The position numbers and the translations under genes are program-made. From an uncultured Oscillospiraceae bacterium (GTDB lineage Bacteria; Bacillota; Clostridia; Oscillospirales; Oscillospiraceae), in contig CALXDC010000022.1 of assembly GCA_944386975.1 (NCBI GenBank), positions 1 to 42,940 on the forward strand: a stretch of DNA of 42,940 nt, in the 5' to 3' direction. Shown in pieces: positions 20,017-38,975 of the stretch (its first letter is position 1; every line of letters starts with the position of its first letter). The notes under the pieces were generated by a model, which was not told the DNA's origin, did no database searches, and was given only the letters and a program-made list of their open reading frames with translations.

Positions 20017-20038
20017 GTCCCCTCGCCGCCGGGACCGG
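20017..20038 (-). repeat. Outer arm end of element E1, next to the mrdA ribosome site
   Basis: A GTCCCC-CCGCCGGGACCGG word, found in the same place relative to the other elements (for example 32666 onward beside E4, and inverted before miaA). Read on the minus strand it is the last repeated block before AAAGGAGG of mrdA. Confidence 0.6.
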
Positions 20039-20126
20039 CTCCTGTTTTGCCCTCGGGCCGGGCGGGCCGTCCGCTGACGAAGATTCTTCTTTCTGTCGGT
20101 GCCCGACGGGCTTCGTTACCTTCCTT

Positions 20127-20812
20127 GCCTCCGGCGGCCTACTTTTGTCGCTGAACAAAAGTAGGCATCTCCGCGCTAAGAGCCTCGCTTCGCTCGGTTG
20201 CGCTCCGAAACACCTCGCTGCGGCTTGGTGAAAATCAGCTTAGAACCAAGGTTCTAAGGACTCCTTTATTATTACCAAGACCGGATGGTCAGAGAGGCTT
20301 TTCCCTGGGGGAAAGAGGCGAAGCGCCGCCTGGGGCGGAAGAAGCGAGCCTCTTTTGAGGAAGCGGCACGATTGGCGGGCGCGAACAGCGCCCGGGAATC
20401 GTTTTGCCGCGACGGTGGTCAAGGTGGCACGGCGCAGCCGTGACGGATGAGGGGAACGCCATCGAAAAACTCCGGACCAACTCAGAGGAAAAACCAAAAT
20501 CAAAGTTTCACGGAAAATCGCTTCCGAATAAGTCAAGTGCGCCTCGATACCTTTCCCCTCATCCGCCCCCTTCGGGGGCACCTTCCCCCAGGGGAAGGCT
20601 TAGAGAGGGCCATCGTCAACTCACCGCATCAGCGCGAAGCGCGGCGCAGATGCAGAAGATGACCCAAATCGGCGTCACCCGTACAAAGCCTCAGCCAAAA
20701 GCCTCCCTGACCATCCAGTCTTGGTAATTAACGAAGGGAGTTCTTAGAACCGCAGGTTCTAAGTCAACTTTTGCCTACTTTTCTTTGACGAGAAAAGTAG
20801 GCCGCCGGAGGC
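20127..20812. repeat. Nested inverted-repeat element E1 (686 bp)
   Basis: Bounded by GCCTCCGGCGG at the left and CCGCCGGAGGC at the right. Each end is followed inward by a CCTACTTTT hairpin. Further in on both sides is a CTTAGAACC/GGTTCTAAG palindrome (20239-20258 and 20743-20763). The right half (read inverted) carries the block with GACGCCGATTTGGGTCATC; the left half is a shorter, related block. A 43-bp module (20168-20210) interrupts the left arm. It fills the gap between the U32 peptidase stop and the mrdA leader. I see no gene in it. Confidence 0.85.
20168..20210 (+). repeat. 43-bp module shared with element E5
   Basis: An inserted block that starts TCTCCGCGCTAAGAGCC and ends TTGCGCTCCGAAA. 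The same block appears inverted at 38778-38820 inside E5 with one mismatch in 43. It sits in different positions of the two elements, so it behaves like a module on its own. Confidence 0.8.
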
Positions 20813-20901
20813 ATAACACCAAACGCAACGCGTCGGGTACCGACAAAAAAAGACTAACCCCTCGTCAGAGGGCAAAAATCCCCCTGCCCTTTGGGGAGAG
20901 G

Positions 20902-22998
20902 TTATTCCACCCCACGGTAGAATAGCCCTCGTGTCAGCGCTTTGGGGTCGGGGGCCCAGCCCCCATCCCCCCGGTACCGCCGCAGCACGGCGGCGCACTC
21001 CTCCGCCCCCTCGGTGGTGAACCGCAGCCGGGCGTAGGCAAGGCCCATCCGCTGCCACTCCGGTTTGTCCGCTAAGAACAAAATCTTCCCGTTCTCGATC
21101 TCGCTGCGGCAGCCGAAGGCGGGACACACCGGGAACCGTTCCCCCCGCCGGTCTACAAGACCGTGGCCTGCGGCACAGGGGCCCTTCAAATCCTTACTTC
21201 TGCAGCCGTACCGGTTTCTTACCAGACAGTTCTCCGTAATCATCAGCGGCAGCCGCCCGTAGACCACCGCCTCACAGGGGAGAGTCTTCCGCACGTCCCG
21301 CATCTGCTCCCACCTCAGCTCAAAGGACAGCGTAGCACAGGTAAGCCCTTCCTCCCTCAAAAATTCTACCGCGAAGCTGTTGAAGATATTCAGCCCAAAG
21401 TCGCCACGGGGCAAAAGTCCCGCCCTTTGGACCAGGGCAATCTGGCCGATGTTGTGGACCTGGGCGGCGGCGTAGCCCCGCTCCCTGGCCTTCTCCATCT
21501 GCTCTGAGAGCCAGGGCTCGTCCTTGTCCCGCCAGATCCGGGGCAGCTCCAGGGAGAAGAGGGTCTCTCCCCTCCCCTGCTTCGGGTCCACCTGCTCCCA
21601 CAGCCAGATGGGCACGGAGAGGACCGCCGGCTCCTCCGCCAGCAGCTTTGCCGTCACCTGGTCCGGCCGCATCACCGACACGGTGAGGGACGGGGCCTCC
21701 CGGCGGCGCTCCGCCTCCGGCAACGACGGCGTGGGACAGCTCCGCCGCTTTGGCAGGGCCGTCCGCTTTTCCTCCAGGGCCTCCAGGCCCGCCCGGCGCA
21801 GGGCGTTCAAATCCCCGGCGCTGAGGTACAAATCCTCCCCCACCTCCGCCGTGACGGACCGGCACACAAAGGTGGTGCCCCCGGTCTTCCCCAGGCGGTC
21901 CTCCGCCTCCGCCGCCGTGAGGCCGCGGCTCCGGGCGCTCTGGGGCGCCGCCCCGGCCACGGTGACGGTGTTCCCGTCCTCATCCCGGACGGTAAGGGAC
22001 GACGGCTCCCCCGCCCGGAGCCGGGCGGTGAGGTCCACCGGGATCCGGCGCAGATCCTCCCGGTCGTAGGCCGCCTTGGCCTGGGCGAAGAGGTCCGCCG
22101 GGTCCTGGGCCTTCTCCGGTCGGACGCCGAACATGTCCGGCCCCTTCCTCCCCCGCCAGTACCCGTCGGTAAAGCCGCTGCGGGAGAAGGCCAGGGCCAG
22201 GGTCTCCTCCTCTTCCGCCGTGGCGGCGCGGTTCTCCTTACATAGACGGCTGTAAATCTGAGTGATGACGGCCACGTACTCCGGCCGCTTCATGCGGCCC
22301 TCCAGCTTGAGGCTGGCCACCCCCATCCGGAGAAGCTCGGGCATGTACCGGGCAAGACAGGCGTCCTTCAGGCTGAGGGGATGGCCCTGCTTGCCCCCGT
22401 CCATAGCGTAGGGCAGGCGGCAAGGCTGGGCGCAGGCCCCCCGGTTGCCGGAGCGGCCGCCGATGAGGGCGCTCATGGCACACTGACCGGAGTAGCACAT
22501 GCAGAGGGCCCCGTGGCCAAAGACCTCAATGGCCATGGGGCTCCTCTCACAGATGGCGGCAATTTCCTCCCCACTGAGCTCCCGGGCCAGCACGGCGCAG
22601 CGGATGCCCAGCTTCCCCAGGGCCTCCACCCCGGAGAGGGTGTGGACGGACATCTGGGTGCTGCCGTGGAGGGGCAGGTCCGGGGCCACCGCCCGGGCCA
22701 GGGATACCACCCCCCAGTCCTGGACAATAATGGCGTCCACCCCGCAGCGGGAGGCCTCCCGGAGAAGGTCCGCCGCGCCGCTCAGCTCCCGGTCGGTGAG
22801 GAGGGTGTTGACGGTGAGGTACACCCGCACCCCCCGAAGGTGGCAGTAGGCCACCGCCCTTGGCAGCTCCTCCAGGGTGAAATTCCTGGCGCCCCGGCGG
22901 GCGTTGTAGTCGCCCACGCCGAAATATACCGCGTCGGCCCCGTTCTGGACGGCGGCCACCATGGCCTCCCAGTGGCCGGCGGGAGACAAAATCTCCAT
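20902..22998 (-). CDS. U32 family peptidase (collagenase-like / RlhA-like)
   Basis: A 698-residue U32-family protein. The N-terminal TIM-barrel domain starts EILSPAGHWEAMVAAVQNGADAVYFG, with the U32 signature EVFGHGALCMCYSGQCAMS followed by GNRGACAQPCRLPY (cysteines of a probable Fe-S or metal site). An insertion region and a C-terminal second domain follow (ending CPAFGCRSEIENGKILFLADK). Some U32 members are now known as hydroxylases of 23S rRNA or tRNA (RlhA, TrhP), so 'peptidase' may be a misnomer. The start is ATG 22998 or GTG 23004; both overlap or abut the zapA stop, so translation is coupled. The 3' end abuts element E1. Confidence 0.88.
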   Translation of the reverse strand: MEILSPAGHWEAMVAAVQNGADAVYFGVGDYNARRGARNFTLEELPRAVAYCHLRGVRVYLTVNTLLTDRELSGAADLLREASRCGVDAIIVQDWGVVSLARAVAPDLPLHGSTQMSVHTLSGVEALGKLGIRCAVLARELSGEEIAAICERSPMAIEVFGHGALCMCYSGQCAMSALIGGRSGNRGACAQPCRLPYAMDGGKQGHPLSLKDACLARYMPELLRMGVASLKLEGRMKRPEYVAVITQIYSRLCKENRAATAEEEETLALAFSRSGFTDGYWRGRKGPDMFGVRPEKAQDPADLFAQAKAAYDREDLRRIPVDLTARLRAGEPSSLTVRDEDGNTVTVAGAAPQSARSRGLTAAEAEDRLGKTGGTTFVCRSVTAEVGEDLYLSAGDLNALRRAGLEALEEKRTALPKRRSCPTPSLPEAERRREAPSLTVSVMRPDQVTAKLLAEEPAVLSVPIWLWEQVDPKQGRGETLFSLELPRIWRDKDEPWLSEQMEKARERGYAAAQVHNIGQIALVQRAGLLPRGDFGLNIFNSFAVEFLREEGLTCATLSFELRWEQMRDVRKTLPCEAVVYGRLPLMITENCLVRNRYGCRSKDLKGPCAAGHGLVDRRGERFPVCPAFGCRSEIENGKILFLADKPEWQRMGLAYARLRFTTEGAEECAAVLRRYRGDGGWAPDPKALTRGLFYRGVE

Positions 22999-23000
22999 GG

Positions 23001-23327
23001 TCACTTCTTCTGCAGCTGCTGCTGGAGCTTGAAGACCTCCCGCTTGAGGTCGGAGGCCTCCGCCTTGGCCCGGTTGGCCTCGTCCAGATAGCCCTTCAGC
23101 TGGCTGCGGATGTTTTCGCTGCTGCTCTGGCTTTTCAGCAGCTCGTCGGCGATATTCACCGCCGCCAGAATGGCGGCGTCGGTGAGGCTCACCCGGCCTC
23201 CGGCCAGGATCTCCGACATGCGGCTGTCCACCATAGCGGCCACCTTCTGCATGTAGGAGGGGGACTCCTCAGCGGTGAAGGTGTACTCCTCTCCGCAGAT
23301 GCTGACGGTGATGCGGTTGTTTTCCAT
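23001..23327 (-). CDS. zapA: Cell division protein ZapA
   Basis: A 108-residue FtsZ-ring stabiliser. It starts MENNRITVSICGEEYTFTAEESPSYMQKVAAMVDSRM, the ZapA N-terminal domain, and continues with VSLTDAAILAAVNIADELLK and a C-terminal coiled coil (QLKGYLDEANRAKAEASDLKREVFKLQQQLQKK) that mediates tetramerisation. AAGGAGG is 7 nt upstream of the ATG at 23327, and a promoter is predicted at 23375-23402. The stop overlaps the start of the U32 gene, so both are cotranscribed. Confidence 0.92.
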   Translation of the reverse strand: MENNRITVSICGEEYTFTAEESPSYMQKVAAMVDSRMSEILAGGRVSLTDAAILAAVNIADELLKSQSSSENIRSQLKGYLDEANRAKAEASDLKREVFKLQQQLQKK

Positions 23328-23374
23328 ACCATATCCTCCTTGGGCGGCATATTCTCCCATTTTTCTATCTATTC

Positions 23375-23402
23375 AGTATACCATATCCCTCCGCCGGGAC
23401 AA
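23375..23402 (-). promoter_or_regulatory. Predicted sigma-A promoter of zapA
   Basis: On the minus strand TTGTCC (23397-23402), 16 nt spacer, TATACT (23375-23380). It gives a leader of about 40-50 nt. Confidence 0.6.
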
Positions 23403-23439
23403 GAGGGCCGGGCGGAAATTTTCAAAATGTTCTATTTTT

Positions 23440-23973
23440 TCACCGGCAGAACTTCTCCACATAGGCGTCGAAGGCCCGGCGGATCAGCGCCACCGCCTCC
23501 TTCCGCCCGTGGACGCTGTCCACCTCGGCGTTGGTGTCCGGCTCCAGGTGCTTGTAGATGCTGAAAAAGTGGCTGATCTCGTCGGAGAGATGGCCCGGCA
23601 GCTCCTCCAGCTCCCGATACTCGTTATACACCGGGTCCCCGAAGGGGATGGCCAGCACCTTCTCGTCCATGGCGCCGCCGTCCCGCATGGTGATGTATCC
23701 CACCGGGTATACCCGCACCAGACTCAGGGGGCGGATGGACTCGCTGCACAGCACCAGCACGTCTAAGGGGTCTCCGTCGTCGGCGTAGGTCCGGGGAATA
23801 AAGCCGTAGTTGGCCGGGTAGTGGGTGGAGGTGTAGAGGATCCGGTCCAGCCGCAATGCCCCCGTCTCCTTGTCCAGCTCGTACTTGTTCTTGGAGCCCT
23901 TTTCGATCTCAATCACCGCCAAAAAGTCCTCCGGCGACATGCGGCCGGGGCGGATGTCGTGCCATAAGTTCAT
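23440..23973 (-). CDS. ppa: Inorganic pyrophosphatase (family I)
   Basis: A 177-residue soluble enzyme that hydrolyses pyrophosphate to phosphate, pulling biosynthetic reactions forward. The family I signature is DGDPLDVLVL, preceded by the conserved IEIEKGSKNKYELDKETGALRLDRIL and YPANYGFIPRTYADDG, with Glu, Lys, Tyr and Asp residues of the active site in place. GGGAGG lies upstream of the ATG at 23973. The downstream ~100 bp up to the zapA gene hold the zapA promoter; no obvious hairpin terminator was seen. Confidence 0.95.
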   Translation of the reverse strand: MNLWHDIRPGRMSPEDFLAVIEIEKGSKNKYELDKETGALRLDRILYTSTHYPANYGFIPRTYADDGDPLDVLVLCSESIRPLSLVRVYPVGYITMRDGGAMDEKVLAIPFGDPVYNEYRELEELPGHLSDEISHFFSIYKHLEPDTNAEVDSVHGRKEAVALIRRAFDAYVEKFCR

Positions 23974-24055
23974 ACCATCGCCTCCCTCGTTTTTATTTTC
24001 TTTAGCTTATCACAGGACCGGGGAAAAGGCAACCGAGGGGCAGGAGGGAAAATTC

Positions 24056-25955: not shown

Positions 25956-26431
25956 GCCTCCGGCGGCCTACTTTTCTCGTCAAAGAAAAGTAGGCAAAAG
26001 TTGACTTAGAACCAAGGTTCTAAGAACTCCTTTTGGCCTATTATGGGAAATCCGTACCATTTTTATCGTTAAATTGTGCGGCTGACCCATCAAGGGTGTC
26101 GGAGTTCCCCTGTTTCCGCGCTTCGGCGCGCTTCCCCGGTGGTTGTTATAGCTTCTGCACCGATGCTGACAGACTTACCAAAGCCGTACACACTCATTCG
26201 CGGAAAAGCGGTAGACGAAAACATCTGCGTCTACCCACCGCATGAGCGCGCTTAAAGCGCGGCGCAGAAGCAGAAGACGACCCAAACAGGCGTCACCCGT
26301 ACCAAACCAACAATCAAACGCCTCCCTGACTCCCAAGTTTCGGTAGGAAACGAAGGGAATTCTTAAAACCGTAGGTTTTAAGCTGATTTTTGCCTACTTT
26401 TGTTCAGCGACAAAAGTAGGCCGCCGGAGGC
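25956..26431. repeat. Nested inverted-repeat element E2 (476 bp)
   Basis: Left end GCCTCCGGCGG with a CCTACTTTTCT hairpin; right end CCGCCGGAGGC with a CCTACTTTTGT hairpin. CTTAGAACC/GGTTCTAAG lies at 26005-26024; at 26362-26382 both arms have changed to CTTAAAACC/GGTTTTAAG. Its left half is a 'type B' block (GGCCTATTATGG, TTGTGCGGCTGAC, GTCGGAGTTCCCC) and its right half, read inverted, the 'type A' block with the GACGCCTGTTTGGGTC word, the reverse order to E3-E5. It separates the miaB operon from mutS. Its outer arm (26432-26530) reaches the AAAAGGAGG of mutS. Confidence 0.85.
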
Positions 26432-26544: not shown

Positions 26545-29142
26545 ATGGCAGAACTCACCCCCATGATGCGGCAGTATCTGGAGATCAAGGAACAAAATAA
26601 AGACGCGATTTTGTTCTTCCGCCTGGGCGACTTTTACGAGATGTTCAACGAGGACGCCCTCACCGCCTCCCGGGAGCTGGACCTCACCCTCACCACCCGG
26701 GACCGCTCCAAGCCCGAGGAGGAGCGGACCCCCATGTGCGGCGTGCCCTACCACTCCAGCGACGGCTACATTGCCCGCCTCATCGCCAAGGGCTACAAGG
26801 TGGCCATCTGCGAGCAGACCGAGGACCCCGCCACCGCCAAGGGCCTCGTCAGCCGGGACATCATCCGGGTGGTCACCCCCGGCACCGTCACCGACTCCGC
26901 CTCTTTGGACGAGGGCCGCAGCAATTTCCTCTGCGGCATCTTCCTCGATAAGCACGTGGCCGGCGTCAGCTTCTGCGACATCACCACCGGCCAGACTCTG
27001 GCTACCGCCTTCGAGGGCAAGGACCGTTTGGACCACCTCCTCAACGAGCTGGGCCGCTTCTCCCCCGCCGAGGCGGTGCTGAGCCCGGAGGCCTTTGAGG
27101 ACCCCCAGCTCACCGCCATGCTGAAAGAGCGCCTGAGCTGCCGCCTGGAGCGGGGCGAGCCCCGGAGCTTCAAGGCTGAGGCCGCCGAGCGGTCCGTCAG
27201 CCGCCAGTTCGGCGACGAGCAGCGCCGTGCCCTCCCCCGGGACAACCCGGCGGCCCTTCTCTCCCTGGGCGGCCTCCTCCACTACCTCTACGCCACCCAG
27301 AAGACGGACCTCAGCCACATCAAGACCCTGGAATACTACCGCCAGGGCCGGTTTTTAGAGCTGGACCTCACCGCCCGCCGGAACCTGGAGCTGACAGAAA
27401 CCCTCCGCACCAAGGAGAAGCGGGGAAGTCTCCTCTGGGTCCTCGACAAGACCAAGACCGCCATGGGCGGCCGCCTCCTCCGCTCCTGGCTGGAGCGTCC
27501 CCTTTTGGACGTGGCGGCCATCCGCCGCCGGTCCTCCGCCGTGGAGGCGCTGGTACACGACACCCTCTGCCGGGAGGAGCTGATTCTGGCCCTCACCGGC
27601 ATCCCCGATATGGAGCGGCTCATGGGCCGGGTGGCCTACGGCAGCGCCGGGGGCCGGGACCTGGTGAGCCTCCGCAACGCCGCCGAGCACCTTCCGGCGG
27701 TGAAGGAGCAGCTTCAAAAGCTCCAAAACCCCCGCCTCGCCCAGCTCAACCAGGGTCTCAGCGATTTGAAGGACATGCTGGACCTCATCTCCATCGCCAT
27801 CGACGACGATCCCCCCTTCTCCGTCCGGGAGGGCGGCTTCATCCGGGACGGCTACAACGACGAGGTGGACCGGCTCCGGGAAATCCAGAACGGAGGCACC
27901 TCTGTCATTGCTCAGGTGGAGGCCCGGGAGCGCCAGCGCACCGGCATCCGCTCCCTGAAGGTGGGCTACAACAAGGTCTTCGGCTACTACATCGAGGTCA
28001 GCAAGTCCTTCTACGACCAGGTCCCCGACGACTACATCCGCAAGCAGACCTTAGCCAACTGCGAGCGCTTTATTACCCAGGAATTAAAGGATCTGGAGCA
28101 CACGGTGCTCACCGCCAAGGACCGGGTGGTGGCCCTGGAATACGAGCTGTTCCGGGACGTGTGCCAGCAGATCATTCAGCAGACGGAGGCCATTCAGGCC
28201 ACTGCCGCGGCGGTGGCGGAGGTGGACGCCCTCTGTTCTCTGGCGGCGGTAGCGGTGAGCCAGAACTACTGCTGCCCGGAGGTGGACGACAGCGACGTCA
28301 TTGAGATCCACGACGGTCGCCACCCGGTGGTGGAGCGGGTCTTGAAAGACAGCCTCTTCGTCCCCAACGACACCTACATGGGGGAAAAGGAGAACCGGGT
28401 GGCCATCATCACCGGCCCCAACATGGCGGGCAAGTCCACCTATATGCGTCAGGTGGCCCTTATTACCCTCATGGCCCAGATCGGGTCCTTTGTCCCCGCC
28501 CGGGCGGCCCACATCGGCATTGTGGACCGGATCTTCACCCGCATCGGCGCCAGCGACGACCTGACCTCCGGCCAGAGCACCTTCATGGTGGAGATGAACG
28601 AGGTCAGCGAAATTCTCCGCTGCGCCACCAGCAAAAGCCTTCTCATCTTAGACGAGATTGGCCGGGGCACCAGCACCTTTGACGGCATGTCCATTGCCCG
28701 TGCGGTGCTGGAGCACTGCGTGAAGAAATTAGGGGCCAAAACCCTCTTTGCCACCCACTACCACGAGCTCACGGAGCTGGAGAACACCCTCCACGGGGTG
28801 AAGAACTACAACATTGCCATCCGGACCCGTGGGGAGGACATCATTTTCCTCAGGAAGATCGTCCCCGGCGGGGCCGACCAGAGCTACGGCATCGAGGTGG
28901 CGAAGCTGGCGGGCCTGCCCGACACGGTGGTCCGCCGGGCCCGGAAGATTCTGGAGGAGCTGGAGAGCGCCGGGGGCCGCTCCGCGCCCCTGCTGGCCGC
29001 GTCCCCGGGGGCGGAACAGGTGAGCATGGAGGCTCTGGGGGAGGCGGAGGTCATCGACCGCCTGCGCCGCACCCAGCCGGACACCCTCACCCCCATTGAG
29101 GCCATGAGCCTCCTCTACGAGCTGAAGCAGAAGCTCAGCTGA
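26545..29142 (+). CDS. mutS: DNA mismatch repair protein MutS
   Basis: An 865-residue mismatch-recognition ATPase. The N-terminal mismatch domain holds the Phe-x-Glu motif (FFRLGDFYEMF). Connector, lever and clamp domains follow, then the ATPase with Walker A GPNMAGKST at about 624-632, LLILDEIGRGTSTFDG (Walker B and signature) and FATHYHEL (switch His). Length and motifs are normal. AAAAGGAGG precedes the ATG; the leader from the element E2 edge (26432) to there is shared in sequence with leaders of mutL, miaA, mrdA and a HAD gene. It works with MutL at 30650, from which it is separated by a CPBP protease and element E3. Confidence 0.97.
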   Translation: MAELTPMMRQYLEIKEQNKDAILFFRLGDFYEMFNEDALTASRELDLTLTTRDRSKPEEERTPMCGVPYHSSDGYIARLIAKGYKVAICEQTEDPATAKGLVSRDIIRVVTPGTVTDSASLDEGRSNFLCGIFLDKHVAGVSFCDITTGQTLATAFEGKDRLDHLLNELGRFSPAEAVLSPEAFEDPQLTAMLKERLSCRLERGEPRSFKAEAAERSVSRQFGDEQRRALPRDNPAALLSLGGLLHYLYATQKTDLSHIKTLEYYRQGRFLELDLTARRNLELTETLRTKEKRGSLLWVLDKTKTAMGGRLLRSWLERPLLDVAAIRRRSSAVEALVHDTLCREELILALTGIPDMERLMGRVAYGSAGGRDLVSLRNAAEHLPAVKEQLQKLQNPRLAQLNQGLSDLKDMLDLISIAIDDDPPFSVREGGFIRDGYNDEVDRLREIQNGGTSVIAQVEARERQRTGIRSLKVGYNKVFGYYIEVSKSFYDQVPDDYIRKQTLANCERFITQELKDLEHTVLTAKDRVVALEYELFRDVCQQIIQQTEAIQATAAAVAEVDALCSLAAVAVSQNYCCPEVDDSDVIEIHDGRHPVVERVLKDSLFVPNDTYMGEKENRVAIITGPNMAGKSTYMRQVALITLMAQIGSFVPARAAHIGIVDRIFTRIGASDDLTSGQSTFMVEMNEVSEILRCATSKSLLILDEIGRGTSTFDGMSIARAVLEHCVKKLGAKTLFATHYHELTELENTLHGVKNYNIAIRTRGEDIIFLRKIVPGGADQSYGIEVAKLAGLPDTVVRRARKILEELESAGGRSAPLLAASPGAEQVSMEALGEAEVIDRLRRTQPDTLTPIEAMSLLYELKQKLS

Positions 29143-29184: not shown

Positions 29185-29889
29185 ATGGCGAAAAAAAGTG
29201 CGGGCGGCGGCTGGCTGACGGATTTTGAGCGGGTGGCCGGCGGCGTGTTCTTTGTGTTGTATGTGGTGGTGTTCCCCCTCACCCTCACCTGGATCTTCCG
29301 GGGAGTGGAGGCTCTGCTGGGCACCTCCTTCTCCGCCCAGCGAGAGCAGGAAATTTACTATTACATCATCTTTGTGGTCACGCTGGTTATTTTTTACAAC
29401 TTTATCGGCAAGACCACCCAGTGGCTGCTGGGGAATTTTGTCCACACGCTGTCCACAGCGGCGGTGGGACTGGTAGCCTTTTACGGGCTCAACGAGCTGC
29501 TGTACCGGTTGAGCCACACCCTCCTGGGGGGACAGACCAATTTGAACGATGTGGCCATCAGCGCACAGACGGCCACAGTGGGGCGGCCCACCCTGCTGAT
29601 CCTGATTTTTCTTGCGCCTTTTGTAGAAGAGGTGCTGTTCCGGGGGTATATTTTCGGTATACTCCGGCCCCGGAATCGGGTGCTGGCCTACGCGGTGTCG
29701 GCCTTGTTGTTTGCGTTCCTCCACGTGTGGCAGTTTGCCGCCGGGGGGTTCAGCGTGCAGCACCTGGTGCTGCTGGTGCAGTATCTGGTGCCCGGTCTGG
29801 TGTTGTGCTGGACCTACGACCGGTGCGCCACCGTGTGGTGTCCGGTGCTCACCCATGTGTGTGTGAACGCGCTGTCCATCCTGCTGTGA
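29185..29889 (+). CDS. CPBP family intramembrane metalloprotease
   Basis: A 234-residue membrane protein of the CPBP (CAAX/Abi) family. The three signatures are EEVLFRG (E148-E149 to R153), the FAFLH pair in LLFAFLHVW, and HVCVNA near the C-terminus, which supply the catalytic Glu and metal-binding His residues. About six membrane helices are visible. Some relatives process prenylated or exported proteins or give immunity to bacteriocins, but no partner gene lies beside it. It begins 42 nt after mutS, so likely expressed with it. The ribosome site (AAAGAAAG) is weak. Confidence 0.9.
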   Translation: MAKKSAGGGWLTDFERVAGGVFFVLYVVVFPLTLTWIFRGVEALLGTSFSAQREQEIYYYIIFVVTLVIFYNFIGKTTQWLLGNFVHTLSTAAVGLVAFYGLNELLYRLSHTLLGGQTNLNDVAISAQTATVGRPTLLILIFLAPFVEEVLFRGYIFGILRPRNRVLAYAVSALLFAFLHVWQFAAGGFSVQHLVLLVQYLVPGLVLCWTYDRCATVWCPVLTHVCVNALSILL

Positions 29890-29972: not shown

Positions 29973-30549
29973 GCCTCCGGCGGCCTACTTTTCTCGCGGA
30001 AGAAAAGTAGGCAAAAGTCCGCTTAGAACCTACGGTTCTAAGAACTCCCTTGTTTTCTACCGAAACTTGGAAGTCAGGGAGGCTCTCTATTGCTGGCTTG
30101 GTACGAGTGACGCCGTTTTGGGTCATCTTCTACTTTACGCGCCGCGCTTCGCGCTGATTCGGTTGGGTCGACGATGGCCCTCTCTAAGCCTTCCCCCGCT
30201 GGGGGAAGGTGCCTCCGAAGGAGGCGGATGAGGGACCGCGCGGTGCAAGGTGTCAGTAGAAGGAAATCTCTGCTCTTGGGCCCCCCTCATCCGTCACGGC
30301 TCCGCCGCGCCACCTTCCCCCAAGGGGGGAAGGCCTAAGGATGCAGAAGCCCCTACAACCACCAGGGCAGCGCGCTTAAAGCGCGGAACAAGGGGAACCC
30401 GGTCACCCCGCTGCTGCGTCAGATGCACCAGAGCCCGAATAAGGCATCAGGACTACCAGTACAAGGAAATAAAGGAGTTCTTAGAACCATTGGTTCTAAG
30501 CTGATTTTTGCCTACTTTTGTTCAGCGACAAAAGTAGGCCGCCGGAGGC
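29973..30549. repeat. Nested inverted-repeat element E3 (577 bp)
   Basis: Ends as in the other copies: GCCTCCGGCGG...CCGCCGGAGGC, CCTACTTTT hairpins next, then CTTAGAACC palindromes at 30022-30042 and 30480-30500. The left half is 'type A' (ACCGAAACTTGGAAGTC, GACGCCGTTTTGGGTCATC, GCGCCGCGCTTCGCGC); the right half read inverted is 'type B'. The core holds back-to-back copies of a CCTTCCCCC palindrome block with CTCATCCG. It sits between the CPBP gene and mutL. No gene seen. Confidence 0.85.
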
Positions 30550-30649: not shown

Positions 30650-32659
30650 ATGGCACATATTGAACAACTCTCCCCCCATATTGCGGACCTGATCGCCGCC
30701 GGCGAGGTGGTGGAGCGCCCCGCCAGCGTGATGAAGGAGCTGCTGGAGAACGCCATCGACGCCGGGGCCACCCAGGTGGTGGCCGAGATCCGGAACGGCG
30801 GCATGACCTACCTCCGGGTGGCCGACAACGGCTGCGGCATCGCCCCGGAGGAGGTACCCACCGCCTTCCTCCGCCACGCCACCAGCAAGCTGCGGCGGGC
30901 CGAGGACCTCTCCGCCATCGGCACCTTAGGCTTCCGGGGCGAGGCCCTGGCCGCCATCTCCGCCGTGTCCCGTCTGGACATCTTTACCCGTCAGCCGGGG
31001 GCAGAGGCGGGGGTCCGCCTGAGTCTGGAGGGCGGCGTCCCCCAGGGCGCTCCCGAGCCCGCCGGGTGCCCCGAGGGTACCACCATGGTGGTCCGGGACC
31101 TCTTCTTCAACACCCCCGCCCGGATGAAATTCATGAAGAAGGACAGCGCCGAGGCCAGCGCCGTGGCCGCTGTGGTCCAGCACCTGTCCCTCTCCAACCC
31201 CCACATCTCCTTCCGCTTCCTCAAGGATGGGGCGGAAGTCCTCCACACCCCCGGAGATAACAAGCTCTCCAGCGCCATCTATGCCACCCTGGGCCGGGAC
31301 TTTGCTCTGGGGCTCCAGGAGGTGCAGGGTCAGGGGGACGGCGTGGAGGTGTCCGGCTACGTCACCAAGCCCATCAATGGCCGGGGTACCCGCGGCATGC
31401 AGATCTTTTTTGTAAATGGACGGCTGGTGAAGTCCCAGATGCTCACCGCCGCTCTGGAGGAGGCCTACAAAAACCAGCTTTTGAAGGGGAAATTCCCCGG
31501 CTGCGTTCTCCACATCACTCTCCCCAAAAACCAGGTGGATGTAAACGTCCACCCCGCCAAGACGGTGGTGAAGTTTGCCCAGGAGCGGCCCGTTTTTTCT
31601 GTCGTGTACCATGTGGTCCAGGACGCTCTGGATGCCGCCGGGCGGCCCGCCCCCTCCGTTACCGCCGTCTCGGCAAGCACCGGCAGCGCCGTTCCCCGGA
31701 AGGACTTTTACCAGACCATGGACGCCAGGACCTTCCGGGCGCAGCAGGCGAAAAAAGCGGAATCCCCCGCCCCTGCCTTTCTCACCCGGGTACCTCCGGT
31801 GTCGGTGGAGATGGGGGGCCGGGTGGCCGTCAGCGACGTGAGCCGCCGCCCGGCGGCCACCACGCCGCTTTCGTCGGAGCGGCCCCGGCCTGTCTCCCTC
31901 TCTCCGGCGCGGCAGGAAGTTTTCCCCAAACCTTCCACCGCGGTGGAAAACATGGTGGAAAGAGCGGAAGCATTTTCCCCGGCAAAGGGCCAGGAGACAC
32001 AGAAGGCCACGCCTTCCCTCCGGACCGGTCCGGACGCCTCCCCGGCGCCTCCCGCGGAGGAGCCGGAGCAGGTGACGATGACCCCGGCCCCCGCGCCCCG
32101 GTGGCGGATGGCGGGGGAGGTGCTGCGGACCTATATTCTGGCGGAGGATGGGGAAAATGTGTGGCTCATCGACAAGCACGCCGCCCATGAACGGATCAAC
32201 TTTGACCGGCTGAAGGCCAACACGGAGCCCATCATGGGGCAGACTCTTCTGGCAGCGGAGGCGGTAAAGCTGGCCCCGGAGGACGCGGCGGCGCTGCTGG
32301 AGCACCTGCCGCTGCTGGCGGAGTTCGGCTTTGAGGCGGAGGAGTTCGGCGGCGACAGCCTGCTGGTGCGGGCCATCCCCTCGGACATCGACGCGCCGCA
32401 GATTCAGGAGACCCTGGAGGAGCTGGCCCAGAAGCTGCGGACCTGCGGCACGGCGGACCCCGCCGCCGCCCGGGACGCCATGCTCCACACCATGGCCTGC
32501 AAGGCGGCCATTAAGGGCGGCTGGGTCAGCGACCCTGCAGAGCTGCAAACCCTGGTGGACAAGGTGGCCAGCGGGGAGGTGCGGTACTGCCCCCACGGGC
32601 GGCCCGTGGCAGTGAAGCTCACCCGCTATGAGCTGGAGAAGATGTTCAAAAGAGCGTGA
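30650..32659 (+). CDS. mutL: DNA mismatch repair protein MutL
   Basis: A 669-residue MutL with the GHKL ATPase at the N-terminus (ELLENAIDAG, VADNGCGI, TLGFRGEALAAIS), a variable Pro/Ala-rich linker (about residues 335-485), and a C-terminal domain. The endonuclease metal motif is DKHAAHERINFD at 508-519, where the second residue and the last acidic residue differ from the usual DQHA-E-x4-E. ACKAAIKGG and CPHGRPVAVKL, the other metal-site motifs, are present. So it is probably a nicking MutL, typical of bacteria without MutH. AAAGAAAGGA before the ATG is a moderate ribosome site. Its leader is the outer arm of E3. Confidence 0.96.
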   Translation: MAHIEQLSPHIADLIAAGEVVERPASVMKELLENAIDAGATQVVAEIRNGGMTYLRVADNGCGIAPEEVPTAFLRHATSKLRRAEDLSAIGTLGFRGEALAAISAVSRLDIFTRQPGAEAGVRLSLEGGVPQGAPEPAGCPEGTTMVVRDLFFNTPARMKFMKKDSAEASAVAAVVQHLSLSNPHISFRFLKDGAEVLHTPGDNKLSSAIYATLGRDFALGLQEVQGQGDGVEVSGYVTKPINGRGTRGMQIFFVNGRLVKSQMLTAALEEAYKNQLLKGKFPGCVLHITLPKNQVDVNVHPAKTVVKFAQERPVFSVVYHVVQDALDAAGRPAPSVTAVSASTGSAVPRKDFYQTMDARTFRAQQAKKAESPAPAFLTRVPPVSVEMGGRVAVSDVSRRPAATTPLSSERPRPVSLSPARQEVFPKPSTAVENMVERAEAFSPAKGQETQKATPSLRTGPDASPAPPAEEPEQVTMTPAPAPRWRMAGEVLRTYILAEDGENVWLIDKHAAHERINFDRLKANTEPIMGQTLLAAEAVKLAPEDAAALLEHLPLLAEFGFEAEEFGGDSLLVRAIPSDIDAPQIQETLEELAQKLRTCGTADPAAARDAMLHTMACKAAIKGGWVSDPAELQTLVDKVASGEVRYCPHGRPVAVKLTRYELEKMFKRA

Positions 32660-32758: not shown

Positions 32759-33337
32759 GCCTCCGGCGGCCTACTTTTGTCGCTGAACAAAAGTAGGCAA
32801 AAGTCAGCTTAAAACCTACGGTTTTAAGAATTCCCTTCGTTTCCTACCGAAACTTGGAAGTCAGAGAAGCTTTTCGTCGTTGACGTTGCTCGAGTGACGC
32901 CTGTTTGGGTCATCTTCTGCTTGAAGCGCCGCGCTCCGCGCTGATTTGTTGGGTAGACGATAGTCTAAAGCCTTCCCCCGCTGGGGGAAGGTGGCACGGC
33001 GGAGCCGTGACGGATGAGGGACCGCGCGGTACAAAATATCGATAGAGGGAAGTCTCTGCCCTTGGGTTCCCCTCATCCGCCTCCTTCGGAGGCACCTTCC
33101 CCCAGCGGGGGAAGGCTTGGATGGTGCAAATGCAGAGGCCCTAACGACCACCAAGGCAGCGCGCTGAAGCGCGGAAGGAGGGGAACTCCGACCCCCTTGC
33201 ACCCGTCAGCCGCACAAAGTAACGACAAAAACGGAACAAGACTATCCATAATAGGCCGAAAGGAGTCCTTAGAACCATTGGTTCTAAGCTGATTTTTGCC
33301 TACTTTTGTTCAGCGACAAAAGTAGGCCGCCGGAGGC
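32759..33337. repeat. Nested inverted-repeat element E4 (579 bp)
   Basis: The clearest copy. Ends GCCTCCGGCGG/CCGCCGGAGGC; hairpins with CTACTTTTGTC arms; palindromes CTTAAAACC/GGTTTTAAG at 32808-32828 and CTTAGAACC/GGTTCTAAG at 33268-33288. The left half is type A and the right half read inverted is type B. The core is two inverted CCTTCCCCCGCTGGGGGAAGG blocks with CTCATCCG. Its outer arms also pair: from 32666 (GTCCCC...CCGCCGGGAC) with the inverted copy before miaA (ending about 33430). The whole mutL-to-miaA gap is therefore one large inverted repeat of about 770 bp. Confidence 0.88.
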
Positions 33338-33445
33338 AAAACACCTGCCGACGTGCGTCGGCCATCGAAAAAACGACCTCCGCCCTCGTCAGCGGGCAAA
33401 AAGCCCGTCCCGGCGCATGAGCGGACAAAGAAAGGAGGCCCCCCT

Positions 33446-34402
33446 GTGGAACAGAAAAAACAAAATACCGTGGTCTGCGTGGTGGGCCCCACCGCCTGCG
33501 GCAAAACCAAAATGGGCGTGCTGCTGGCCAAGCAGCTCAGCGGCGAGGTGGTCAGCGTGGACTCCATGCAGATTTACCGGGGTATGACCATCGGCACCGC
33601 CGCCCCCACGCCGGAGGAGATGGACGGCGTCCCCCACCACATGGTAGCGGTGGCGGACCCCAAGGAGCAGTGGTCCGTGGCCCGGTTCGTCCAGGCCGCC
33701 GATGCCTGCGTTCAGGACATCCTCCAAAGAGGCAAACTCCCCGTGCTGGTGGGAGGCACCGGCCTCTACCTGGACGCCCTCATTGCCGGGCGGGACTTTG
33801 CCGCCGGTCAGGCCGGAGGGAAAATCCGAAGAGAGCTGGAGGAGCGCCTCCAACAGGAGGGCGTCGAGCCTCTTCTCTCGGAGCTCCGCTCGGCGGACCC
33901 GGAGACCGCCGCCCGCCTCTCCCCCGCCGACCACAAGCGGATCCTCCGGGCCCTGGAGGTCTTCCGGGAGACCGGCAAGCCCATCTCCCGGCACAACGCC
34001 GAGAGCCGCCAGAAGCCCGGCAAATACCGGCCCATCTATATCGGCCTCGCCTTCCGGGACCGGGAGGATATGAAAGCCCTTATTGACCGGCGGGTGGACG
34101 AGATGGTCCGCTCCGGTCTCCGGGAGGAGGTGGAGGCCCTCCTCCGCGCCGGACTGCCTCCGGGGGCCACCGCCCTCCAGGCCATCGGGTACAAGGAGTG
34201 CCTCCGGTGGCTTCAGGGAGAGGCCTCCTTTGAGGAGGCGGCGGAGGAGATCAAGCTCCGCTCCCGGCAGTACGCCAAGCGCCAGCTCACCTGGTTGAGA
34301 AGAAACCCCGACATCCACTGGATCTATTGGGACAAGGAGCGGGATTTTGATAAAGCCCTGCAGGAAGCGACAGAAATCCTGTCGGCCCTGGGGGTAGGAT
34401 AA
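33446..34402 (+). CDS. miaA: tRNA dimethylallyltransferase
   Basis: A 318-residue enzyme that adds a dimethylallyl group to A37 of tRNAs reading U-starting codons, making the substrate of MiaB. P-loop VGPTACGKT, the DSMQIYRGM motif and PHHMVAV, the VGGTGLYLDAL strand, and the tRNA-binding tail RSRQYAKRQLTWLR are all present. The start is GTG at 33446 because AAAGGAGG lies 7 nt upstream; upstream in-frame residues come from the repeat leader. miaA followed by hfq is a widely conserved order. Confidence 0.95.
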   Translation: MEQKKQNTVVCVVGPTACGKTKMGVLLAKQLSGEVVSVDSMQIYRGMTIGTAAPTPEEMDGVPHHMVAVADPKEQWSVARFVQAADACVQDILQRGKLPVLVGGTGLYLDALIAGRDFAAGQAGGKIRRELEERLQQEGVEPLLSELRSADPETAARLSPADHKRILRALEVFRETGKPISRHNAESRQKPGKYRPIYIGLAFRDREDMKALIDRRVDEMVRSGLREEVEALLRAGLPPGATALQAIGYKECLRWLQGEASFEEAAEEIKLRSRQYAKRQLTWLRRNPDIHWIYWDKERDFDKALQEATEILSALGVG

Positions 34403-36002: not shown

Positions 36003-36003
36003 C

Positions 36004-36693
36004 ATGAGCATTGCAGAAAATATTCAGTCCATCCGGCAGCGGATGGCGGCGGCGGCCCAGGCCGCCGGCCGGGAGGACCCCATCCTTCTGGTGGGCGCCA
36101 GCAAGATGAACGACGCGGCGGCCTGCAGGGAGGCGGTGGCGGCCGGCATCGACGCCCTGGGAGAGAACCGGGTCCAGGAGCTGCTGGGCAAGTATGCCGA
36201 GGGGGCCTATGAGGGCGCGCCCCTCCACTTCATCGGCCACCTCCAGCGCAACAAGGTACGGCAGATCGTGGGAAAGGTGTCCCTGATCCACTCCGTGTCC
36301 TCTCTGGAGCTGCTGGAGGAGATCCAGCGCCAGGCGGAGAAACAGGGCCTCACCCAGGCGGTGCTGCTGGAGGTGAACATCGGCGGGGAGGAGAGCAAGA
36401 GCGGCTTTGCCCCGGAGGAGGTGGAGGCCGCCGCCCGCCGGGCGGCGCAGCTGCCCAACATTTCCATGGAGGGTCTCATGACCATCCCTCCCATTCAGAC
36501 GGTTCCCCATGAAAATCTTCCCTATTTCCGGGATGTCTATCGTCTTTATATTGACATAGGGGAAAAAGTGTTCCATAATAAGCTAAAATATCTGTCCATG
36601 GGCATGAGCGACGATTTCGAGGACGCCATTGCCGCCGGCGCCAACATGGTCCGCGTCGGAAGCGCCATTTTTGGCGCCAGACATTATATTTGA
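36004..36693 (+). CDS. yggS: PLP homeostasis protein (YggS family)
   Basis: A 229-residue alanine-racemase-like fold that binds pyridoxal phosphate and buffers its level in the cell. The cofactor lysine lies in LLVGASKMND near residue 36; GENRVQELLGKY, HFIGHLQRNKVRQIV, LLEVNIGGEESKSGF and SMGMSDDFEDAIAAGANMVRVGSAIFG are the family motifs. It starts two bases after the HlyD-like stop codon. Position ahead of sepF and divIVA matches the ylmE-ylmF order in Firmicutes. Confidence 0.95.
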   Translation: MSIAENIQSIRQRMAAAAQAAGREDPILLVGASKMNDAAACREAVAAGIDALGENRVQELLGKYAEGAYEGAPLHFIGHLQRNKVRQIVGKVSLIHSVSSLELLEEIQRQAEKQGLTQAVLLEVNIGGEESKSGFAPEEVEAAARRAAQLPNISMEGLMTIPPIQTVPHENLPYFRDVYRLYIDIGEKVFHNKLKYLSMGMSDDFEDAIAAGANMVRVGSAIFGARHYI

Positions 36694-36710
36694 GACAGGA
36701 GGTACCCTCC

Positions 36711-37217
36711 ATGGGAATTTTTGACGAGGTGAAGAAGATCTTCAACCCCTATGAGGACGAGGACGACTACGATCAGGACTACGAGGACCAGGAATCCTCC
36801 CCCTTTGTGGACGAGCGGGAGCGGGACCGGGACCGCGACCGTGACCGGGATCGGGACCGTCAGCGGGACAGCGGCGACCGCCGTTCCTCCTCCGCCTCCT
36901 TTGACGAGCGGCGCAACAAGGTGGTGAACATCGCCGCCACCACCCAGCTGAAGGTGGTGCTGGTGAAGCCGGAGCGCTTTGAGATGGCCAGCGAGATTGC
37001 GGACCACCTGAAGGAAAAGCGGACGGTGCTGCTGAACCTGGAGTCCACTCAGAAGGACATTGCCCGCCGTCTTGTGGACTTTCTCTCCGGCGTGGCTTAC
37101 GCCAGCGAAGGCCGCATCAAGAAGGTGGCGGCCAACACCTACATCATCACCCCCTATCACGTGGAGATGGTGGGGGATCTGCTGGACGAGCTGGAGAGCA
37201 ACGGCCTGTACTTTTGA
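36711..37217 (+). CDS. sepF: Cell division protein SepF
   Basis: A 168-residue FtsZ-associated membrane-tethering protein. The N-terminal amphipathic helix (MGIFDEVKKIF) anchors the membrane. A charged linker follows, acidic first (EDEDDYDQDYEDQE) and then a block of Arg-Asp dipeptides (about residues 35-53), and the C-terminal SepF domain carries RNKVVNIAA, KVVLVKPERFE and GVAYASEGRIKKVAANTYIITP. AGGAGG lies just upstream of the ATG at 36711. The Arg-Asp tract is an expansion in the linker and is discussed as a finding. Confidence 0.94.
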   Translation: MGIFDEVKKIFNPYEDEDDYDQDYEDQESSPFVDERERDRDRDRDRDRDRQRDSGDRRSSSASFDERRNKVVNIAATTQLKVVLVKPERFEMASEIADHLKEKRTVLLNLESTQKDIARRLVDFLSGVAYASEGRIKKVAANTYIITPYHVEMVGDLLDELESNGLYF

Positions 37218-37239
37218 CCCTTAGAGGAGGAAGAGAGAG

Positions 37240-38229
37240 ATGTTGACCCCCCAGGAAGTAAGCAGCAAGACCTTCCCCAAGGCGGTGATGGGCGGCTACG
37301 GCATGGCCGCGGTGGACGATTTTCTGGACAAGCTCACCGAGGACTATACCGCTCTGTTCCAGGAGAACACGGCGCTGAAGGCCAAGGCCAAGCAGCTGAG
37401 CGACGAGATTGAGCGCTACCGGAAGGTGGACGATCAGATGCGGGCCACCCTTCTGGCGGCTCAGGAGATGGCGGAGAAGACCGTGGCCGATGCGGAGCAC
37501 CTGCGCCAGTCGGTGGAGCAGGAGGTAGCGGAAAAGCGGAAGGCCCTTTTGGGCGACGCGGAGAAGGCCGCCAAGGAGCGGATGGATGCGCTGCGCCGGG
37601 AAATTGCCGACGAAGAATACCGCCTGGCGGAGAAGAAGGCCCAGGTGGACGCGGCCATTGCCGGCGAGGAGCTGCGGCTGGAAAAGGCTCGGGCGGCGGT
37701 CGGCAAGTTTATGGAGATCGCCAGGGGCAACTGCCAGGAGCAGCTGAAGATTCTGGAGCGCCTGCAGAATATGGTACCGGCGGTGCCGGTAAAGCACCCG
37801 GAGCGTCCGGCTCTCAAGGAGGAGGCCCCCAAGGAGGCGCCCGCCCCGGCGGCGAAGGAGGCGGAAGCCCCTGCCGCTTCTGCCGAGGAAGAGATTCCCT
37901 CCATTCCGGAGATGGCGGCAGCCGCTGAGGCCCCGAAGGCGGAGGAGCCGCCGGTGCAGCTGGATGAGAATTTCTTCACCGCCCAGGTACCCAGCATGTC
38001 CGCTCTCCGGGAGCGGATGCGCCAGGAGATGCACAAGCCGGAGGTACACCATAAAAAGCAGGAGGAGACCGCCCCCGCCGAGGAGGAGCCCTCGGTGGAG
38101 GAGAGCATCCGCAGCGCCATGGAGGAGCTGAAGGTGGAGGGCGCCGCCTCTTACGACGACGCGGAAGCCACCCGGGTCATCAACCTCGACGACCTGCAGT
38201 TTGGCCGTAACTACAAACGAGGGGAGTAA
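37240..38229 (+). CDS. divIVA: DivIVA-like cell division / septum protein
   Basis: A 329-residue DivIVA. The membrane-binding N-terminus (MLTPQEVSSKTFPKAVMGGYGMAAVDDFLDKL) with the usual Gly-Tyr turn leads into a long coiled coil (about 35-185). Then come a Pro/Ala/Glu-rich linker (about 190-230) and a C-terminal tail with RVINLDDLQFGRNY, much longer than B. subtilis DivIVA. It marks negatively curved membrane at septa and poles. AGGAGG precedes the ATG. It is the last gene before a terminator and element E5. Confidence 0.93.
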   Translation: MLTPQEVSSKTFPKAVMGGYGMAAVDDFLDKLTEDYTALFQENTALKAKAKQLSDEIERYRKVDDQMRATLLAAQEMAEKTVADAEHLRQSVEQEVAEKRKALLGDAEKAAKERMDALRREIADEEYRLAEKKAQVDAAIAGEELRLEKARAAVGKFMEIARGNCQEQLKILERLQNMVPAVPVKHPERPALKEEAPKEAPAPAAKEAEAPAASAEEEIPSIPEMAAAAEAPKAEEPPVQLDENFFTAQVPSMSALRERMRQEMHKPEVHHKKQEETAPAEEEPSVEESIRSAMEELKVEGAASYDDAEATRVINLDDLQFGRNYKRGE

Positions 38230-38233
38230 GCCC

Positions 38234-38271
38234 CTTCGGGGAGCATCCGCCAGATCGGACGCTCCCCGAAG
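38234..38271 (+). terminator. Terminator of the hfq-divIVA run
   Basis: CTTCGGGGAGC and GCTCCCCGAAG form an 11-bp stem followed by TTTTCTG, just after the divIVA stop. Confidence 0.75.
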
Positions 38272-38375
38272 TTTTCTGTAAGAACGCCCTCAGGCCGGGC
38301 GGGGCCGGTTTTATCCTTCTGACGAAGGATGGCGTCGTTTTTATCGGTACCCGACGGTGTACCGTTTGGTGTTTT

Positions 38376-38861
38376 GCCTCCGGCGGGTGACTTTTCTCGC
38401 CAAAGAAAAGTCACCAAAAGTTGGCTTAGAACCAAGGTTCTAAGAACTCCTTTCTTTCCTACCGGAACCGGAAAGTCAGGGAGGCTTTTGGCGGGGGCTT
38501 TGTACGAGTGACGCCGATTTGGGTCATCTTCTGCTTGAAGCGCCGCGCTCCGCGCTGATGTGGTGGGTTGACGTAGCCTTAAGCCTTCCCCCGCTGGGAG
38601 AAGGTGGCGCGAAGCGCCGGATGAGGGATCGCGTGGTGCAGGGTAACGATAGAAAAAAGTCTCTGCCCTTGGGCTTCCCTCATCCTCCCCAGTGTGCCCA
38701 CTGGGGCACCCCGCAGCGTTAAGAAAACATGCCGGTGGCATGTTTTTAGCGTAGGCCACATCGCGCCCGCAGGCGCATTTCGGAGCGCAACCGAGCGCAG
38801 CGAGGCTCTTAGCGCGGAGATGGTGACTTTTCTTCCGCGAGAAAAGTCACCCGCCGGAGGC
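38376..38861. repeat. Nested inverted-repeat element E5 (486 bp)
   Basis: Same ends (GCCTCCGGCGG / CCGCCGGAGGC), but the first hairpin is GTGACTTTTCT on one side and its complement on the other: TGACTTTT replaces CTACTTTT on both arms at both ends. A CTTAGAACC palindrome at 38425-38444 is present on the left only. The left half is type A (TTGTACGAGTGACGCCGATTTGGGTCATC). The right half differs: an AAAACATGCC/GGCATGTTTT hairpin (38724-38746) and the 43-bp module shared with E1. It lies between divIVA and a HAD gene and reaches the latter's AAAGGAGG through its outer arm. Confidence 0.82.
38778..38820 (-). repeat. 43-bp module shared with element E1
   Basis: Inverted copy of 20168-20210, one mismatch in 43 bases, placed just inside the right end hairpin of E5. 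Confidence 0.8.
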
Positions 38862-38975
38862 AAAGAAGGTATCGAAACACCGTCGGCCTTCGACAAAAAA
38901 GCCCCCGCCTTCGTCAGAGGGCAAAAAAGGAACCGTGCCGGTCCCGGCGAGCGGACAAAGAAAGGAGGCCCCCGG

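Follow-up and report, generated by a model that had tools for sequence, protein, structure and literature searches.

Locus and layout of the elements

The DNA analysed here, called the window throughout, is a stretch of 42,940 nt from contig CALXDC010000022.1 of an uncultured gut Oscillospiraceae bacterium (GCA_944386975.1), whose genome (G000, the own genome in the following) is a 2.66-Mb draft. Five segments of the window, bounded by the end words GCCTCCGGCGG and CCGCCGGAGGC, lie between genes and are referred to as elements. The main layout of each is that of two structured arms of about 80 nt in inverted orientation. Read inwards, an arm consists of the end word, a hairpin E (12 bp, core CTTTT/AAAAG), an A-rich link, a 5-nt tail and a second hairpin, F, which is a palindrome. 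The loop of E is complementary to the tail just before F, a pattern from which an H-type pseudoknot is predicted. This loop-tail complementarity, a feature absent from an earlier note on the same DNA, is usually kept in cis, arm by arm, through many sequence changes within the genus, and it recurs with other letters in other genera.

The earlier note had described nested inverted repeats with a hairpin just inside their ends and a CTTAGAACC-type palindrome on both sides in four of the five. The five segments were recovered at the coordinates and with the end words given there. Hairpin E is seen in 10 of 10 window arms, and the palindrome flanks both sides in four of the five elements, the right side of element 5 being without it. 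In two window arms the palindrome reads TTAAAACC instead of CTTAGAACC. The description as nested applies to additional palindromes, which lie centrally and within some of the arms, but not to the main layout. The elements sit among housekeeping genes, and the row miaB-mutS-mutL-miaA is interrupted by them. The gene names in the following list are best profile matches, some of them below the curated cut-off (ORF, open reading frame).

Element 1: 20127..20812, 686 bp; between a penicillin-binding protein 2-like gene and a U32-peptidase-like gene, both on the minus strand
Element 1, left arm: 20137..20257, plus strand; hairpin E, insert of about 63 nt, tail TCAGC (20235-20239), palindrome F (20240-20257)
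Element 1, right arm: 20732..20812, minus strand; E, pseudoknot tail and F; loop GTCAA, tail TTGAC
Element 2: 25956..26431, 476 bp; between miaB plus a small ORF (to 25886) and mutS
Element 2, left arm: 25956..26035, plus strand; loop GTCAA, tail TTGAC
Element 2, right arm: 26351..26431, minus strand; loop GCTGA, tail TCAGC; F stem TTAAAACC
Element 3: 29973..30549, 577 bp; between a CPBP-protease-like gene and mutL
Element 3, left arm: 29973..30053, plus strand; loop GCGGA, tail TCCGC
Element 3, right arm: 30469..30549, minus strand; loop GCTGA, tail TCAGC
Element 3, central extra palindromic insert: 30187..30334 (ends approximate); AGCCTTCCCCC ... GGGGGAAGGC with CTCATCCG words; repeat families D11, D13 and I25
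Element 4: 32759..33337, 579 bp; between mutL and miaA
Element 4, left arm: 32759..32839, plus strand; loop GCTGA, tail TCAGC; F stem TTAAAACC
Element 4, right arm: 33257..33337, minus strand; loop GCTGA, tail TCAGC
Element 4, central extra palindromic insert: 32969..33116 (ends approximate)
Element 5: 38376..38861, 486 bp; between a DivIVA-domain gene and a weakly HAD-IB-like gene
Element 5, left arm: 38376..38455, plus strand; loop GCCAA, tail TTGGC
Element 5, right arm: 38822..38851, minus strand; hairpin E alone, another palindromic repeat replacing tail and F
Outer small-hairpin layers beside element 1: 20017..20126; GTCCC..GGGAC, CCGCTGACG, GTCGG..CCGAC
Penicillin-binding protein 2-like gene: 17899-19995, minus strand
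U32-peptidase-like gene: 20902-23004, minus strand
mutS: 26545-29142
CPBP-protease-like gene: 29185-29889
mutL: 30650-32659
miaA ORF: 33353-34402
DivIVA-domain gene: 37240-38229
Weakly HAD-IB-like gene: 38976-39848

In the left arm of element 1, the tail TCAGC behind the insert remains complementary to the E loop GCTGA. Outer hairpin layers similar to those of element 1 flank the other elements, and best-matching copies share these layers some tens of nt beyond the end word.

A second palindromic repeat (AGCCTTCCCC..., with CTCATCCG words) often sits in the middle of an element, as at the central positions listed for elements 3 and 4 and similarly in elements 1 and 5. Some copies of it carry further unrelated inserts. 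Another repeat (ATCTCCGCGCTAAGAGCCTCGCT...) follows hairpin E in some arms (20167-20230 and 38735-38821 in the window). A tRNA gene at 42461-42534 is the sole Rfam match of gathering level in the window.

Conservation of the predicted pseudoknot

The own genome has 93 arms, 71 of which match a strict loop pattern, and the exact complement of the loop lies downstream in 66 of these 71. In four of the 66 an insert of about 63 nt precedes it. In four more, all with the loop GCGGA, the counted match is inside the insert; a proper tail also follows the insert in three of them, the fourth, without a proper tail, being the right arm of window element 5. Among the five strict arms without a match, one is cut by a contig end, three have an insert after E (followed in two of them by the tail of another class) and one has a one-base tail change. 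The 22 arms outside the strict pattern include further loop classes, single-base variants and a collapsed element.

Covariation was assessed in an alignment of 32 arms, chosen by hand for diversity among congeners. Pairing was found in 97.1% of cells, compared to 78.9% in shuffled alignments, and both sides of a pair are changed in 150 cells, compared to 45.4 after shuffling. Such both-side changes occur in all five pseudoknot pairs, and slid versions are only 34-57% paired. When eight window arms were folded as single-stranded DNA, using a folding model without pseudoknots, hairpins E and F were obtained with z-scores of -4.8 to -6.6; element 2 with its flanks reached -10.8.

In other genera, 38 of 56 distinct arms have a loop-tail match of at least 4, made up of 25 different words, compared to a mean of 6.1 such arms and a maximum of 14 in 1000 shuffles. 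The own-genus loci L119, L278, L333, L338 and L343 are left out of this count. Together with the covariation in the 32 arms and the pair types reported below, these matches give the idea of a structural element stronger support than the earlier note knew.

Pairing of one arm with the other was considered as a conserved structure and rejected, as it shows no excess within elements over between elements. The outer flanks were likewise considered as halves of a target palindrome. A slight left/right complementarity excess is present in the own genome (20-60 nt, 11 of 2000 permutations as high; 0-20 nt, 97 of 2000) and none in the congener G006, and such a role is not claimed generally. The letters after F tend to shift with the 5' strand of F in a parallel sense (GA/CT, GG/CC, AA/TT; alignment columns 55-57 and 75-76). 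The combinations GAACC/ACTCC, GGGGC/ACCCC and AAAACC/ATTCC were seen by eye, and exceptions exist.

Copy number, internal organisation and genomic context

At up to 3 mismatches, the 20-base end word occurs 46 times in forward and 50 times in reverse orientation in the own genome, the reversed control word not at all; two places with 3 mismatches (C16:14777 and C61:10117) look unrelated. In the stretches around these matches, 43 left/right pairs were assembled, 42 of them of 348-799 bp and one of 50 bp, and nine end words were left unpaired, seven at contig ends. The family has about 50 copies in the own genome. Six contigs (C13, C46, C56, C63, C65 and C76) end within about 120 bases of an arm. 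The repeats thus break the assembly, and the copy number is a lower bound. The collapsed 50-bp element (L124:4106-4155) consists of end words and a single hairpin, the expected outcome of a deletion between two inverted E hairpins.

Among 60 relatives searched, the end word is comparably abundant only in the congeners G004 (46 forward, 41 reverse) and G006 (45 and 48). G009 has 4 and 14, nearly all of a variant word. Counts in the other congeners (0-6) and in other genera (0-5) are near those of the control word (0-2).

The arms are usually convergent, with about 350-1070 bp between them, and the two inner halves past them are usually unlike each other. Halves were typed by simple word rules and grouped into class X (half types T1 and T4) and class Y (half types T2, T3 and T5). 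One half of each class is found in 31 of 38 fully typed elements of the own genome (same-class in seven; five of 43 incompletely typed) and in 22 of 23 of G006 (10 of 33 incompletely typed), an excess that is descriptive and partly built in, since the classes were defined after the co-occurring half types had been seen. Given this predominance, most elements have a polarity. The X halves are 33 of half type T1 and 3 of T4 in the own genome versus 22 of T4 and 7 of T1 in G006.

No coding ORF lies wholly within the 43 own and 33 G006 elements, as judged by a simple codon-based caller, in agreement with the earlier statement that no gene is inside. The non-autonomous repeat family proposed there is likewise borne out by the high copy number, the inverted arms, the lack of an internal gene and the shortness of the corresponding gaps in congeners that are more distant.

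The orientation of the occupied gaps was determined with the same caller, and five contigs chosen for having no end-word match served as background. In the own genome, 27 gaps are co-directional, 12 convergent, 3 divergent and 1 at an edge, compared to 272 co-directional, 31 convergent and 35 divergent background gaps. Convergent gaps thus make up 12 of 42 for the elements versus 31 of 338 for the background. A probability of 1.8e-4 computed with five element-free contigs picked for having no end-word match is post hoc and carries no weight here. The corresponding numbers in G006 are 25 co-directional, 5 convergent and 3 divergent. Placement between the 3' end of one gene and the 5' end of the next, as claimed earlier, therefore holds for the window but not genome-wide. 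The own elements lie at a median of 109 nt from gene 3' ends. Within the window they do not all point the same way with respect to the gene downstream, element 2 being opposite to elements 3 and 4.

Turnover at orthologous gaps

Presence/absence polymorphism is found at orthologous sites, with short gaps at elements 1, 3 and 5 of the window (gap sizes in congeners were taken from tblastn positions of the flanking genes). At element 1, five congeners (G007, G009, G002, G010 and G003) have tens of bases between the same genes. The gap of element 5 is short in G008, G007 and G009 and about 175 bases long in G005, and that of element 3 ranges from about 25 bp (G007) to about 980 bp (G008, arm present). 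In G006, 1.12 Mb of about 3.0 Mb were examined, by which 22 of the 43 own elements became comparable. A paired element is present in both genomes at 18 of these gaps, two are empty in G006 (numbers 1 and 12 in the list of own elements), one is a larger gap without a detected pair and one holds a single detected arm.

The flanks of the 18 filled gap pairs are about 79-95% identical. The identity of the terminal 150 nt, however, is 0.653 at the same site versus 0.643 at permuted sites, and 1649 of 5000 permutations are as high. Orthology of the flanks is clear more than about 60 nt outside the end word; between 20 and 70 nt the excess is small, and from 0 to 30 nt and further inward there is none. 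Orthologous flanks around ends that are no more alike than random point to old sites whose contents turn over by exchange. Occupied gaps are common to close congeners, and their contents appear to have been exchanged. The mobile-element idea had been tied to the existence of empty sites and to divergence beyond point changes in close relatives. By this measure the result is mixed: empty sites exist and the contents do not differ by mere point divergence, but the closest relative tested is filled at 18 of 22 comparable gaps.

At one element (G006:C41:8859) the flanks match two different places of the own genome (L125 and L147), which makes it a rearrangement junction. Elements thus also mark rearrangement points.

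Polarity at orthologous gaps, read by hand, is sometimes opposite. This would be expected if the elements were invertible promoter segments in phase variation, and inverted repeats that flank 350-800 bp, often upstream of genes, would suit such segments as well. About 50 similar sites would, however, recombine among themselves, the convergent gaps (12 of 42) need no promoter, and the contents are replaced, not just flipped. Invertible promoters can therefore be given hardly any weight.

Base-pair types and the selected form

Covarying pseudoknots are textbook evidence for functional RNA. Base-pair types were counted in 121 distinct arms, nearly all from the own genus. Of the 484 cells of the inner pseudoknot pairs PK2-PK5, 476 are Watson-Crick and none is G-U; of the 605 cells of the stem pairs S2-S4, T1 and T2, 594 are Watson-Crick and one is G-U. 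Compensatory change is present, yet G-U accounts for 1 of these 1089 cells. These sums leave out S1 and PK1, which are often unpaired (95 and 74 of 121), and S5, with four G-U pairs. For comparison, the acceptor and T stems of 12 tRNAs in the same loci have G-U in 10 of 144 cells. If only S1 and PK1 are left out, five G-U and nine A-C pairs are counted, and there is thus no strand bias of the kind that RNA would give.

The alternative that the arms are structured RNA in untranslated regions, or a non-coding RNA, with the pseudoknot acting in the transcript through stability, attenuation or protein binding, draws on the strong compensatory change in the 32-arm alignment and on the positions near gene 3' ends. 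H-type pseudoknots with A-rich third loops, moreover, are common in RNA. This alternative is nevertheless unlikely in view of the nearly missing G-U pairs and of the missing strand bias. Inverted arms would also mean that one of the two is always read as the complement, and the window elements differ in polarity with respect to the gene downstream. A scan of the window against Rfam 15 gave no match of gathering level at the elements, and at E up to 5 there was none at the elements either, the only hit being a weak small-RNA match inside mutS. According to PMC6993869, G-U pairs are maintained by selection in non-coding RNA sets, and G-T maintenance is weak in single-stranded DNA sets. The near absence of G-U pairs points to single-stranded DNA, not RNA, as the selected form. 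To judge by the pair types, selection would act on DNA, with the caution that the arms are related to each other.

Distribution and proximity to the replication origin

A covariance model of the arm was restricted to the hairpins, without the pseudoknot. At E up to 1e-4, arms are matched in 63 of 200 family genomes, which represent 43 of 106 genera, own genus included. All 11 genomes of the own genus have between 9 and 106 matches each. In the class, 8 of 291 genomes are matched, six of these outside the family. Convergent partner arms are present in nine of 18 small loci, two of which are from congeners and some of which are cut by contig ends.

In G160, a complete genome starting at dnaA, 38 of the 59 listed arm matches (E up to 0.01, after removal of three rows with hairpins only) are no more than 150 kb away from dnaA, compared to 6.1 expected (loci L345-L357). 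The same holds for 19 of the 25 listed matches at E up to 1e-4 and, after merging of the listed matches into loci, for 29 of 47 (expected 4.8). The gap between dnaA and dnaN holds a convergent arm pair with matching loops and tails. mutS is located 40 kb from dnaA in this genome. The gap that precedes it and the gap separating it from mutL hold single or weak arms, and the arms after mutL form a stronger group. With so many copies near the G160 origin, the sharing of mutS/mutL gaps with the window may be chance. Of the 36 matches in G157, 32 were used; eight of these are no more than 100 kb away from dnaA and 18 no more than 350 kb, compared to 2.5 and 8.8 expected. An element is located directly upstream of dnaA in G006 (C41) and G004 (C165). 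In the own genome, the dnaA match starts at base 26 of a 4.7-kb contig whose end is an arm.

Chromosome-organising or replication-linked sites, in which cruciform or single-strand structures near oriC bind a host protein and are kept by host selection, would account for the concentration and the dnaA-dnaN pair in G160, the weaker excess in G157, the elements upstream of dnaA in G006 and G004 and the arms round mutS and mutL in G160. Such sites are rather improbable as the explanation of the family, given that just 63 of the 200 family genomes have arms, that the G157 excess is modest and that the contents exchange freely. The surroundings of dnaA in G009, G065 and G136 and those of mutS in G157 are free of arms up to a distance of 1.5 kb. 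The own genome is, besides, a draft, in which the window has no chromosomal placement.

Search for an enzyme and comparison with known repeats

REPINs are inverted pairs of repetitive extragenic palindromes (REPs). Elements of the REPIN/RAYT kind, or palindromes derived from IS200/IS605, would be moved by a Y1 HUH transposase. The present family resembles them in its inverted hairpin pairs in gene gaps, high copy number and lack of an internal gene; enzymes of IS200/IS605 recognise stem-loops (PMC2817692), and the share of genomes with Y1 is somewhat higher where arms are present (31 of 63) than where they are not (51 of 137). Over the 200 genomes this difference is not significant (p 0.12), and among the 24 genomes with at least 11 arm matches, 10 have Y1 and 14 have none. 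Y1_Tnp was not found in G000 or G004 (90% and 84% complete), and the single copy in G006 has an internal stop. Beside the palindrome, no GTAG/GTGG-type head, a REP feature by the definition in PMC2817692, was found in the arm alignment, and length and pseudoknot differ as well. Y1/RAYT as the mobiliser is unsupported by co-occurrence, and this origin, already weakened, appears very improbable.

Phages, plasmids and viral contigs gave no match to one element or to one arm pattern. None of the openly licensed PMC papers listed by literature searches describes the repeats in its title or the abstract shown, and no description was found in Rfam 15.

REPs, REPINs, miniature inverted-repeat transposable elements (MITEs) and bacterial interspersed mosaic elements (BIMEs) are known related kinds; the paired pseudoknot ends are a new feature. 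Like REPs and REPINs with RAYT (for REP and RAYT, PMC2817692), the elements consist of intergenic hairpin units in inverted pairs, with many copies and no gene. They differ in the make-up of each arm, which is about 80 nt long, has two hairpins and a loop-tail pseudoknot and lacks the GTAG head, in a total of 350-800 bp in the own genome, in mostly unlike halves and in the lack of a significant Y1 association. With MITEs such as Correia/NEMIS, RUP, ERIC/RU-1 and YPAL/RU-2 (PMC2229807 and PMC10969869) they share being short, non-coding, intergenic, multi-copy and ended by inverted repeats. Unlike in MITEs, no parent insertion sequence was found here and no target-site duplication was seen at the two empty sites of G006, where the ends are not resolvable, the ends of the elements keep their fold more than their sequence, and arms are present in dozens of genera. 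The word pseudoknot is absent from the main text of PMC10969869. BIMEs, mosaic palindromic clusters, are similar in that palindromic modules are combined and exchanged (PMC2817692). Here, in contrast, one module type is found at both ends, usually convergent, with a specific interior. IS608-type elements of IS200/IS605 recognise their target, a tetranucleotide, through base pairs outside the loop, whereas the hairpin loop here would pair with the tail of the same arm. A short Watson-Crick code beside a hairpin in mobile DNA is common to both (pairing of guide and cleavage site; PMC5934647).

Interpretation

The explanation that we favour, and that has in our view about an even chance of being correct, is a non-autonomous, structure-recognised DNA element that was dispersed long ago and now evolves by exchange among copies. 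It would resemble a very large, intergenic REPIN or MITE, with two inner halves that are mostly unlike, bordered by two inverted arms of about 80 nt and by small hairpins at the flanks. The pseudoknot would form in single-stranded DNA and may be the recognition site of a trans-acting recombinase or another structure-reading protein. Entry of the elements into the gaps, often next to the 3' end of a gene, would have taken place in ancestors, and present turnover would proceed by gene conversion or replacement among copies. More tentatively, and with some doubt, the arms could be single-stranded DNA pseudoknot "locks", whose Watson-Crick loop-tail code is read by a dedicated enzyme or host protein largely regardless of sequence; the family would then be a family-wide element of Clostridia, neither MITE nor REP, that in some chromosomes is concentrated round the replication origin.

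Several observations weigh against the favoured interpretation. No transposase or autonomous copy was found, with no coding ORF inside the 43 own and 33 G006 elements and the other genomes viewed in part, and the results on Y1_Tnp in G000, G004 and the 200 genomes point the same way. The best same-genome copies (alignments of at least 380 bp) are 88.6% (own genome) and 90.0% (G006) identical, and there is thus no sign of recent transposition. No target-site duplication was found at the only two empty sites of a close relative, which are hairpin-rich with unresolvable ends; both could be deletions, one being a possible deletion remnant. Mobilisation in trans, suggested in the earlier note, is something we still only infer, as no enzyme, target-site duplication or near-identical copies were found. 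Further pair types in the 32-arm alignment number 25, below the shuffles (28.6), the first pseudoknot pair is unpaired in 11 of the 32 arms, and the left and right arms of one element show no mutual covariation. The G-U argument counts related sequences, with independent types numbering a few dozen, and outside the own genus the filters used favoured Watson-Crick pairs. The loop-tail matches examined in G157 are nearly all below 4, and in G160 a match of at least 4 is present in 26 of 45 origin-near arms (shuffled mean 8.1).

A signature like that of functional RNA, almost without G-U pairs and located in inverted intergenic repeats, points to selection on single-stranded DNA. The repeats also break assemblies. 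If the interpretation is true, a further principle by which mobile or chromosome-organising DNA is recognised would be gained, together with a model for annotating many unexplained repeats in gut Clostridia. The reason why such repeats accumulate around dnaA, as seen in at least one genome, would also become testable.

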